The notes beneath the pieces were generated by a model, which worked only from the letters and a program-made list of their open reading frames with translations, did no database searches and was not told the DNA's origin. Positions 8,608-34,531 of a stretch of DNA of 35,680 bases are shown here, one piece after another. This stretch comes from a virus, in IMG/VR virus record IMGVR_UViG_3300045972_000082, positions 1 through 35,680 of that record. One strand, written 5' to 3'. The translations under genes and the position numbers were made by a program. The stretch's first letter is position 1; every line of letters starts with the position of its first letter.

Positions 8608-8636
8608 TGTTTTGTTTTTTAAAAGTTAATTTACTT

Positions 8637-8705
8637 ATATCCCGTTGGCAAGGGCAAGTCCCTTGCTTTTGAGCCCATTGTATCAGAGGGCGGACAACGG
8701 GGTAT
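8637..8705 (-). other. Structured intergenic element (three-way junction candidate)
   Basis: Between the VRR-NUC gene and the next gene, about 100 bases without coding sequence. An outer inverted repeat ATATCCCGTTG (8637-8647) / CAACGGGGTAT (8695-8705) has one mismatch (T8640 against G8702). It encloses a perfect 7-bp hairpin GCAAGGG (8648-8654) / CCCTTGC (8660-8666) and a weaker GCCC / GGGC hairpin around the -10 box. No U-tract follows on the minus strand, so it is not an ordinary terminator. Read-through RNA could fold into the whole junction, while RNA started at the internal promoter has only the inner hairpin. Confidence 0.45.
8677..8685 (-). promoter_or_regulatory. Extended -10 promoter candidate
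   Basis: TGATACAAT on the minus strand, i.e. TGN directly before a TACAAT -10, with no good -35 at 16-18 bases. The longer string TGATACAATGG is shared with the portal promoter at 2716-2726. Transcription from here would begin near 8670 and almost immediately enter the 7-bp hairpin at 8648-8666. Confidence 0.4.
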
Positions 8706-8712
8706 AAAAAAA

Positions 8713-9051
8713 CTAATAAATAAATTGCGTCATAAAATTAGTCAAAGACCTCGCCAAAATATATCTGCCCCCGCTTTTTTCAACCATTCGCTGAAACTCT
8801 GCCTGTTTGGGGCTTTGCTTGCCTGTCGCATTTTTAACTTCAATCCCATAAAATATTCCCCTGCGAATAGCAAATATATCACTTGACCCAACCTTGCCAT
8901 ACCGAATGAAGCGTTGTCGTCCTTTGTAGACGCTCCGCACACACCCCGTATTGTTACGCCAAGCGAAAACACCAAGCAAATCCAACGCATTTAATATTTG
9001 CGCTTGAATTTCGTGTTCACTTGCCCTGTCTGCGTCTTTCAAGGTCGGCAT
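8713..9051 (-). CDS. VRR-NUC domain nuclease
   Basis: 112 residues, the size of a stand-alone phage VRR-NUC protein. Seen motifs: SEHEIQAQILNALDLLGVFAWRNN at the start, GSSDIFAI with the metal-binding Asp, and GIEVKNATGKQSPKQAEFQ, the E-x-K core of the PD-(D/E)xK fold, followed by GGRYILARS. Such proteins cut branched or structured DNA, probably resolving recombination or replication intermediates. It lies 1 base after a NUMOD3/HNH-like gene. Family assignment strong; exact substrate inferred. Confidence 0.88.
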   Translation of the reverse strand: MPTLKDADRASEHEIQAQILNALDLLGVFAWRNNTGCVRSVYKGRQRFIRYGKVGSSDIFAIRRGIFYGIEVKNATGKQSPKQAEFQRMVEKSGGRYILARSLTNFMTQFIY

Positions 9052-11614: not shown

Positions 11615-12026
11615 AATTTTGTTGTTTTAGTTTTAAACTTTCCAATAAATCCTTGGTTGCTTTCTCCCCTTTGTATTCCGCGCTCGCCATAAATCGCTCC
11701 AAGCCAATAATAAGTTGCCCCAATCCTTTCTCGGAAACAGTCGCGGGGTCAAATTTTTTATCCCCAAGCAATTTCATTTCCTCGCCGTCAATCAAAACTG
11801 TTGGTACTCCAAAGTTTTTGTACTGTGGCACTCGCTCCTGCGGGTACTGGTTGTTGAAGTCCGCTATGCTCAAAATTTGCGCTATGCTGGACGCTGATAT
11901 TATAGCGTCGCCCAATTTAAATTTTTCTTTTCCGCTCCCCGTAATCTCAAATATAGCGTCGTGGGTGCGCCGTGAAATAAAACGTCGGCTCTTGTCGTGG
12001 AAAATAATTACGTATTCGTGGCTCAT
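11592..12026 (-). CDS. Hypothetical protein downstream of replication initiator
   Basis: 144 residues, not recognised. N-terminus mixed (EYVIIFHDKSRRFISRRTHDAIFEI), centre with KLGDAIISASSIAQILSIADF, C-terminus helical and charged (GLGQLIIGLERFMASAEYKGEKATKDLLESLKLKQQ). It begins in a 4-base overlap (ATGA) with the end of the replication initiator gene, the position where many phages carry a helicase loader. No Walker A or AAA+ motif is present, so it is not a DnaC-type loader. Confidence 0.6.
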   Translation of the reverse strand: MSHEYVIIFHDKSRRFISRRTHDAIFEITGSGKEKFKLGDAIISASSIAQILSIADFNNQYPQERVPQYKNFGVPTVLIDGEEMKLLGDKKFDPATVSEKGLGQLIIGLERFMASAEYKGEKATKDLLESLKLKQQNYAKPIQQ

Positions 12027-12781
12027 TGTGGTAAATCAATTAAGGAATTAGTTTTCTTTTGGTCTATGTACGCCTTTATGTACCCCAAATTGTCCTCCAA
12101 TTGTAACGGCGTAATACTCTTGCCTTTGGCGTACGGGTCGGAATTGAGTTTTGGCAGGACGTTTTCCACCACCGCCCTAATCTGTGGTACGCTCCATTTT
12201 TTCAACAAACGCTCACAAGCACTGCGCTGTGTAGTATTCGCAAACATTTTCTGATAACTCGGGTTTACAATCTCAAAAATCTTAATAACCAATCCAATGT
12301 CTTTATTCTCCGCAACGCTTGGCGTTGCTAAATCTTTATTTATTGCTTTCTTTTCTTTAGTTGTTTTAGTTTCTTTTTGATATAGTGGTGCGGGGATAGT
12401 GCGCGGGTCGTGCGCCTGTGGTGCGGGGATAGTGCGTTCTTCGGTGCGCGTGTAGTTACAAAAGTCTTGATATTTAGCATAGTTAAGCACTTTTATCCTC
12501 ATTCCTCTCGTGCTTTTCGTGGTGCGTATCATTGCACTTTTCTTAAAATAACTAGTCGCGCGCTTGACTTGGTCTATTGAAATGCCCTTGCCAATTGCCT
12601 TAAACTCGTGCGTCCAATTAAAATATCCCTCGCCCCGCTCCAATCTTTTCCCGTCCTGCCAATTCACTTTCTCCAAAATATAAATCCAAATCTTCAACCA
12701 TTCCGAGGGCTTGTCCTGCCACAACTCGCTTTCCAATAATACCCTAGCAATCACAAAATATCCGCTCTTTTTTTGTTCCAT
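12023..12781 (-). CDS. Phage replisome organizer / replication initiator
   Basis: 252 residues from the ATG at 12781. The N-terminal ~100 residues (GYFVIARVLLESELWQDKPSEW, LKIWIYILEKVNWQ, KGISIDQVKRATSYFKKSAMI) match the winged-helix domain of phage replisome organizers, which bind the origin. A polar linker with a repeated RTIPAP follows, encoded by perfect DNA direct repeats (12385-12436). The C-terminal part (AENKDIGLVIKIFEIVNPSYQKMF, ERLLKKWSVPQIRAVVENVLPKL) could recruit helicase. The open frame extends to 13006, but that segment crosses an 18-bp inverted repeat and a promoter and runs into the next gene, so the downstream start is preferred. No polymerase or helicase is encoded, so host enzymes are probably recruited. 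Confidence 0.78.
   Translation of the reverse strand: MEQKKSGYFVIARVLLESELWQDKPSEWLKIWIYILEKVNWQDGKRLERGEGYFNWTHEFKAIGKGISIDQVKRATSYFKKSAMIRTTKSTRGMRIKVLNYAKYQDFCNYTRTEERTIPAPQAHDPRTIPAPLYQKETKTTKEKKAINKDLATPSVAENKDIGLVIKIFEIVNPSYQKMFANTTQRSACERLLKKWSVPQIRAVVENVLPKLNSDPYAKGKSITPLQLEDNLGYIKAYIDQKKTNSLIDLPQ
12385..12436 (-). repeat. Iteron-like direct repeats inside initiator gene; origin candidate
   Basis: Two perfect 19-base copies of GTGGTGCGGGGATAGTGCG (plus-strand reading) at 12385-12403 and 12418-12436, 33 bases apart start to start, with degenerate related pieces (TGTGCGCC, GGTGCGCGTG) beside them. They lie in the linker part of the initiator gene and are flanked at 12330-12385 by an AT-rich tract. 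This is the lambda O arrangement: iterons plus AT-rich unwinding region within the initiator gene. Confidence 0.55.
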
Positions 12782-12795
12782 ATTTTTGTTGTTTT

Positions 12796-12855
12796 TACAG
12801 AATAAGGCACTCTCCAACTTGAATGAAAAAGAGTGCCTTATTCTGTATTCAAGTT
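12796..12855 (-). repeat. Interleaved inverted repeats (18 bp and 9 bp), pseudoknot-capable leader
   Basis: A perfect 18-bp inverted repeat TACAGAATAAGGCACTCT (12796-12813) / AGAGTGCCTTATTCTGTA (12830-12847), loop 16 bases. The loop contains AACTTGAAT (12816-12824), which is complementary to ATTCAAGTT (12847-12855) immediately outside the stem. The two pairings interlock as A-B-A'-B', so RNA could form an H-type pseudoknot. Neither strand has a U-tract after it, so it is not an intrinsic terminator. It lies 15 bases before the initiator start codon. Confidence 0.85.
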
Positions 12856-12868
12856 TATTTGTATTGAT

Positions 12869-12897
12869 ATTATGCGCCTTTTCCGTATTTTTGTAAA
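12869..12897 (-). promoter_or_regulatory. Promoter candidate for the replication initiator
   Basis: TTTACA (12892-12897), 17-base spacer, CATAAT (12869-12874) on the minus strand, one mismatch per hexamer from consensus. Expected start near 12861 places the whole pseudoknot-capable element at the 5' end of the initiator mRNA. Confidence 0.45.
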
Positions 12898-15811: not shown

Positions 15812-16030
15812 TTATTTTATGTCTTGTAAGTTAATTACGCCCTTGTACTTCTTTTTAAATGCCTCCAAATACTTTGCCCCTTGCTGTCTGCTAAAATCAA
15901 ACACCAAACCAATCTGCGTCGGCGTTGGGTAAACTCCCCGCTTGCCTGTTTGCTTGGCTGTGAGTTCCGCCATTGTTTTAATGTAGTGGAAAACTCGCTC
16001 CCTTGTGCCAATTTTTAAAATTTCAATCAT
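15812..16030 (-). CDS. Small helix-turn-helix-like early protein
   Basis: 72 residues, mostly helical and basic. RVFHYIKTMAELTAKQTGKRG, then PTPTQIGLVFDFSRQQGAKYLEAFKKKYKG reads as a winged-helix or helix-turn-helix with the recognition helix SRQQGAKYLEAF. It is the first gene behind the consensus promoter at 16067-16095 and, unusually for this genome, has a full Shine-Dalgarno sequence (AAAGGAGG, 6-7 bases before ATG). A regulator or recombination partner is plausible. Confidence 0.65.
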   Translation of the reverse strand: MIEILKIGTRERVFHYIKTMAELTAKQTGKRGVYPTPTQIGLVFDFSRQQGAKYLEAFKKKYKGVINLQDIK

Positions 16031-16066: not shown

Positions 16067-16095
16067 ATTATACTCTGTTAGTTGCGTTTTGTCAA
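16067..16095 (-). promoter_or_regulatory. Consensus sigma-70 promoter P2
   Basis: Exact TTGACA (16090-16095), 17-base spacer, exact TATAAT (16067-16072). The spacer AAACGCAACTAACAGAG is almost the same as that of promoter P1 at 18505-18533, with three differences over the whole 29 bases. It starts right after the stop codon of the 3D-domain gene. Confidence 0.88.
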
Positions 16096-18504: not shown

Positions 18505-18533
18505 ATTATACTCCCTTGGTTGCGTTTTGTCAA
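18505..18533 (-). promoter_or_regulatory. Consensus sigma-70 promoter P1 of the early region
   Basis: Exact TTGACA (18528-18533), 17-base spacer AAACGCAACCAAGGGAG, exact TATAAT (18505-18510), minus strand. Located downstream of the lysis terminator, it opens the early operon. Its leader contains a hairpin GGTGGGGAG / CTCCCGCC (one bulge) within the first 60 bases. Confidence 0.88.
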
Positions 18534-34464: not shown

Positions 34465-34481
34465 AAAATAATTTGTTTAAT

Positions 34482-34521
34482 ACTGTTCGGCAGGGAAACA
34501 AAGAAAACCCTAGCGAACAGT
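34482..34521 (-). other. Intergenic hairpin before connector gene
   Basis: ACTGTTCG (34482-34489) / CGAACAGT (34514-34521), 8 bp perfect, with AGGG / CCCT inside after a 2-base mismatch. No U-tract. One of several structural-operon hairpins without terminator tails. Confidence 0.6.
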
Positions 34522-34531
34522 TCAAAACCGA

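Follow-up and report, generated by a model that had tools for sequence, protein, structure and literature searches.

A putative bistable leader RNA with interlocked helices before a DnaD-like replication initiator gene of a phage

The replication initiator genes repC of pT181 and repR of pIP501 are preceded by leader attenuators in which a terminator-like stem-loop stands just before the start codon. An upstream leader segment, the pre-emptor, is the first to pair with the terminator's 5' arm, which prevents the terminator, and an antisense RNA decides (PMC5703833). In this study, we analyzed a minus-strand element in a virus record of 35,680 bases, the whole of which is called the window below. 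Similar to pT181 and pIP501, it belongs to a replication initiator gene, has a terminator-like stem-loop before the start codon and has an upstream segment predicted to pair first. In contrast to them, its leader is short and its competitor targets the loop of the terminator in the order B-A-B'-A', with no shared arm and only a single base common to B and the terminator arm. No antisense promoter opposing the leader stands out from shuffles in 18 leaders, and pT181-type antisense-RNA control was rejected for lack of a promoter signal.

The leader-peptide attenuator of B. subtilis vmlR is described as acting on both transcription and translation (PMC9226507). As in attenuators of that type, two exclusive RNA structures are predicted here, and in many relatives a short leader ORF overlaps the terminator; unlike them, the window has no leader ORF, and the ORFs of the relatives share no evident codon signal. 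The preQ1 and ZTP riboswitches are described as pseudoknots that overlap terminators (PMC11625349, PMC10085676). Helices likewise cross in the 5' leader studied here, which includes a terminator-like stem-loop; in contrast to those riboswitches, the element has no conserved aptamer core, its spacers are too short for both full helices, and it has no Rfam match. Among the Rfam covariance models, no family reached the gathering score for the element, and only chance hairpin matches, such as miRNAs, were seen below threshold. An HDV-like ribozyme was considered for the same P1/P2 order and rejected: such a fold needs P4 and J4/2 between B' and A', where nothing lies. We found no description of a phage leader of this kind in the open-licence literature.

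In the reading order of the minus strand, the promoter is followed by B, A, B', A' and the ATG of the initiator gene, as follows.

12869..12897, minus strand: sigma-70-type promoter TTTACA-N17-CATAAT (-35 at 12897-12892, -10 at 12874-12869), matching the consensus at 10 of 12 positions.
12847..12855, minus strand: B, AACTTGAAT, 5' strand of S1, the proposed helix that forms early and competes; fully complementary to the 9-mer in the hairpin loop.
12828..12847, minus strand: A, 5' arm of the long hairpin, TACAGAATAAGGCACTCT(TT), with an A-rich outer half; 18 perfect pairs from 12847-12830, 20 with G-U.
12816..12824, minus strand: B', 3' strand of S1, ATTCAAGTT, in the hairpin loop and flush with A'; assigned from complementarity to B and the nascent-RNA fold.
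12796..12815, minus strand: A', 3' arm of the long hairpin, GGAGAGTGCCTTATTCTGTA; assigned from the inverted repeat and the fold.
12805-12797, minus strand: outer part of A', TTATTCTGT, counterpart of the U-tract of related terminators, from terminator scoring of relatives.
12782..12795, minus strand: A-rich unstructured spacer AAAACAACAAAAAT without a Shine-Dalgarno sequence, nearly identical in the relative L004.
12023..12781, minus strand: DnaD-like helicase loader / replication initiator, 252 aa (phrog_2514, E=2.6e-11; phrog_345, E=5e-7).

A preliminary description of this DNA had reported a perfect 18-bp stem whose loop holds a 9-mer complementary to the nine bases adjoining the stem, with one base shared, and both features are present. 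The inverted repeat (12796-12813/12830-12847) encloses a 16-nt loop; when G-U pairs are allowed, the A:A' stem grows to 20 pairs and the loop shrinks to 12 nt. No other perfect inverted repeat of at least 14 bp with arms within 150 nt occurs in the window. On the minus strand, the loop 9-mer ATTCAAGTT (12824-12816) is complementary at all nine positions to AACTTGAAT (12855-12847), and base 12847 is common to this segment and the stem. The resulting B:B' helix has 9 bp, the B/A and B'/A' spacers are 0 nt, flush at both junctions, and TTC stands between A and B'. A 9-nt match between flank and loop arose in 16 of 20,000 dinucleotide shuffles of the flank, a count that ignores the flush junctions. 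The interlocked pairing is far from chance.

The promoter candidate noted earlier was also found, and its hexamers and 17-bp spacing are identical in L004. Most related leaders have a strong promoter in the same place, with the end of the -10 hexamer 21-67 nt upstream of the hairpin. With the predicted transcription start at about 12862, the initiator mRNA would carry the element at its 5' end, as had been proposed, and the stem ends 14 nt before the ATG (12781). The missing Shine-Dalgarno sequence is shared by the majority of the window genes, which often start with ...AATATG. The protein matches both phrog_2514, a DnaD-like helicase loader, and phrog_345, replication initiation O-like.

In the nearest relative, L004, whose initiator has 54% protein identity, the elements read B AACTTGCA, A TATAAAAAGTGACACCTT, B' TGCAAGTT and A' AGGGTGTCACTTTTTGTA, followed by the near-identical spacer and the ATG. 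Between the window and L004, hairpin A carries six double compensatory and two one-sided changes with no broken pair among 18, and helix B carries one double change with no broken pair among eight: an A-to-C change in B of L004 is compensated in B'. Both helices together thus hold seven double compensatory and two one-sided changes, with 0 of 26 pairs broken. Because the letters differ and the pairing is kept, selection acts on base pairing within a single strand, and this strand is read as RNA because the promoter precedes the element. The covariation in related phages that the preliminary description had proposed to look for is thereby found for L004, and the nearest relatives keep every arm paired, with none of the unpaired or missing arms it had named as evidence against the element. 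Distant homologues without a hairpin mostly lie directly behind another gene and have no leader of their own. Collectively, the computational evidence strongly supports both the structure and its selection.

The same architecture, in different letters, precedes homologous initiators in about 20 divergent phages. The DnaD-like initiators fall into about 35 distinct groups (profile scans of viral contigs; grouping by reading), and by inspection about two-thirds of these have their own promoter and a strong hairpin 0-30 nt before the initiator; in some groups, the hairpin precedes a small gene in front of the initiator instead. Across 17 leaders with a strong stem, the loop is complementary to the 5' flank (Fisher p=7e-11) and real loops beat swapped loops (p=3e-8), and no complementarity to the 3' flank was detected in the same 17 (p=0.999). 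When whole contigs were scanned with loops up to 50 nt and significance set at 0.1, the loop was complementary to the 5' flank in 12 of 14 initiator leaders, compared with 12 of 99 other hairpins of the same genomes (odds ratio 43.5, p=4e-8). The interlock therefore belongs to the initiator leader rather than to hairpins in general. Two hairpin leaders found later and examined afterwards, L083 and L120, both interlock: L083 has 11 paired nt (shuffle test p=0.003), and L120 has a 7-bp match (p=0.15 alone), to which its fold adds another 7 bp flush with A'. Another later-found locus, L092, has no leader. Together, the covariation with L004 and the recurrence in about 20 phages support the view that B:B' is real and selected.

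Many relatives lengthen S1 by an outer helix C:C' beyond an A-rich internal loop (in L009, TGCCTA-AAA-CACGAATA with TATTCGTG-GGTG-TAGGCA), and many carry an extra small hairpin inside the loop. From the end of C' (or B') to the start of A', 13 of 19 leaders have 0-1 nt. Separately, interlocking flank/loop hairpins without a T-run stand before unrelated genes in L066 (9760-9816, plus strand) and L073 (13595-13669, plus strand). They suggest that the interlocked layout is used elsewhere too, and interlocking may not be tied to termination.

Based on folding prediction, the leader between promoter and gene has two mutually exclusive folds. For transcripts running from the start and cut off immediately before A', the prediction in most leaders is S1, with a probability of 0.75-0.99 in 15 of 19 (0.95 in the window); it is low in L008, L027 and L030, and 0.45 in L044. 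In such nascent RNA, the 8 nt adjoining A' pair with the flank (Fisher p=2e-8). For the complete leader RNA, the predicted fold is A:A'. The energies in the window are about -9 kcal/mol for S1 and about -31 kcal/mol for A:A'. With B adjoining A and B' adjoining A', one molecule should not form S1 and the full A:A' helix (18-28 bp across the leaders) at once; for the window, this follows geometrically from the zero spacers and a helix of 18-20 bp. The preliminary description had held that the layout permits an H-type pseudoknot. With L1 = -1 to 0, L3 = 0 and a second helix of 18-20 bp, the geometry should not allow that type, and folding predicts one helix replacing the other. We thus favor a bistable leader in place of a standing H-type pseudoknot.

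In the relatives, a T-run lies inside the outer 3' arm of A:A' (L029 GGGTTTTTTAATT, L031 GAATTTTTTG, L036 GATTTTTTTATTTT). Terminators were scored with a d'Aubenton-Carafa-style d score, a value above zero counting as a pass (E. coli threshold). In 18 of 19 leaders, the sense strand outscores the reverse strand (p=2e-5); the threshold is passed by 10 of 19 in sense and by 1 of 19 in reverse. The window tail TTATTCTGT, paired with the A-rich outer 5' arm, is poor (d=-21), compared with TTTTTGT in L004 (d=+2.9). The U-tracts of L007 and L083 are poor as well, and termination is predicted by E. coli rules neither for these two nor for the window. Terminator character thus belongs to the family, and in the window it is weak. 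The earlier statement that neither strand has a following U-tract needs correction in that the place of the U-tract is the outer 3' arm, poor in the window and good in most relatives. The exclusion of a simple terminator was premature, since the outer 3' arms of the relatives hold U-tracts of intrinsic terminators.

We favor, with a probability of roughly 55%, the reading that the element is a bistable 5' leader RNA attenuating transcription of the phage replication operon. B would be transcribed first and would pair with B' as the latter emerges, forming S1. S1 would keep arm A in its loop and exclude the full A:A' hairpin. As long as S1 is intact, the polymerase would cross the U-rich outer A' and read on into the initiator gene; if S1 opened or never formed, the far more stable A:A' would act as an intrinsic terminator, and initiator synthesis would stop. 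The co-transcriptional competition, actual termination and the direction of control (S1 = on) are what we infer. By analogy with the pT181 pre-emptor, an attenuator whose terminator is pre-empted by S1 appears to be the best-supported account. In many relatives, ribosome entry on the leader ORF is a candidate trigger; the window has no such ORF. For the window itself, the putative attenuator function is moderately supported. Counting against it, the S1 of the window is weak beside A:A' and could be nothing beyond a kinetic delay, and L008, L027 and L030 have no convincing nascent S1. Given the weak terminator half, the switch in the window may be leaky, may be a pause or timing element, or may be tuned to another host.

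A translational switch would work differently: ribosomes translating a leader ORF, whose start S1 would hide, would open A:A' and then restart at the initiator. In 12 of 17 leaders having an ATG, the first one opens a frame of 25-43 codons across the hairpin to a few bases from the initiator ATG (Fisher p=1.3e-5); in L029 and L083, the stop of this frame and the initiator ATG overlap (ATGA), and in six further leaders the stop precedes the ATG by 5-16 nt. Moreover, A:A' lowers start-codon accessibility in L009, L031, L048 and L049. Against this stand the absence of a leader ATG in the window, L004 and L044 and the nearly equal openness of the window start region in either fold (unpaired fraction 0.56 with A:A' and 0.48 with B:B'). 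We regard this switch as rather unlikely. Because A:A' does not clearly increase the occlusion of the start region, simple translational blocking is disfavored in the window, and start-codon occlusion as a general mechanism was rejected since accessibility differs unsystematically across the leaders. From the preliminary description, which had suggested translational control of the initiator, an RNA element at the mRNA 5' end that probably controls the initiator stands, and occlusion of the start codon in the window is not predicted. As side observations, L083 and L030 have a second copy of B immediately upstream of the initiator ATG, so that B' could pair with either one, and in L010 (3680-3840) the loop is complementary to the downstream Shine-Dalgarno sequence instead (TACTCCCTTC/GAAGGGAGTA). 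These arrangements are possible translational versions of the switch.

The remaining explanations concern the hairpin itself. It might stabilize the 5' end of the mRNA or serve as an RNase III site, protecting or processing the mRNA, with B:B' merely tucking in the 5' end. Hairpins of 18-40 bp at the extreme 5' end of the transcript would suit this role, which leaves the U-tract polarity, the flush B'/A' junction and the nascent S1 stability unpredicted; moreover, B should be unable to pair with the loop once the stem is fully zipped. We consider it improbable. Much the same weight falls to a partial pseudoknot, in which S1 and only the inner GC-rich part of A:A' would form with the outer arms open, stabilizing a pause or terminator hairpin or presenting a ligand or protein site. 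The flush B'/A' junction would permit coaxial stacking, the open outer arm would give a linker of about 10 nt, and further hairpins occur in some loops, together with an internal loop AAA/GGTG that is found repeatedly (L009, L031, L028). The odds are nonetheless poor, given that enforcing S1 costs 6-29 kcal/mol relative to the full hairpin (L027 not comparable) and that a conserved ligand-like core and an Rfam family at gathering score are both missing. Finally, an operator or origin in the DNA (a cruciform or initiator-binding repeats) could lie by chance between promoter and gene, and the element does adjoin a replication initiator. This is very improbable: the pairing is conserved and the arm letters are not, the element sits after the promoter and before the ATG, and its terminator-like polarity is strand-dependent. 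A protein-binding site in DNA, another role suggested earlier, is unlikely on the same ground, as the arm letters vary freely with pairing maintained.

Beyond the window, the bistable attenuator might represent a widespread undescribed phage class, in which a 5' segment pairs with the loop of the initiator terminator, exclusion is topological through flush, non-overlapping helices instead of shared arms, and a leader ORF is coupled in many lineages; to us, the case for this is evenly balanced. If true, many uncultivated phages would gate their replication initiator by RNA folding, like some plasmids, and would do so through a simple arrangement whose competitor pairs with the loop of the terminator. 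Such a class would provide a sequence-independent signature for finding these switches, a compact part for studying how co-transcriptional folding chooses on termination, and a route to asking which signal sets phage replication.

Searches at the nucleotide level returned little. Phage records searched by megablast with the initial 25 kb of the window gave no match, and neither did viral contigs searched with a DNA pattern of the element; this pattern barred the extra A of L004 and addressed a sequence that is unconserved anyway. Related loci sought via the upstream gene were not found, and a single scan of bacterial genomes gave just one distant Virgibacillus match, without a comparable leader. 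Several other features of the window were observed. A second structured leader-like RNA lies at 8625-8716 (minus strand), where TTTTTTTATACCCCGTTG...CAACGGGATATAAG closes a pair of inner hairpins and a 73-aa ORF follows after 18 nt; this RNA has no Rfam match at gathering score, and G001 (L063 1804) has the same layout with changed bases. A hairpin at 34474-34528 (minus strand; GTTTTGAACTGTTCGCTAGGG/CCCTGCCGAACAGTATTAAAC) stands directly before a 181-aa gene and is near-identical in G001 (L063 11899). Additionally, two perfect consensus promoters, TTGACA-17-TATAAT, occur at 16067-16095 and 18505-18533 (minus strand), and the gene at 16030 (minus strand) has a ribosome site, AAAGGAGG, that is exceptional in this genome.
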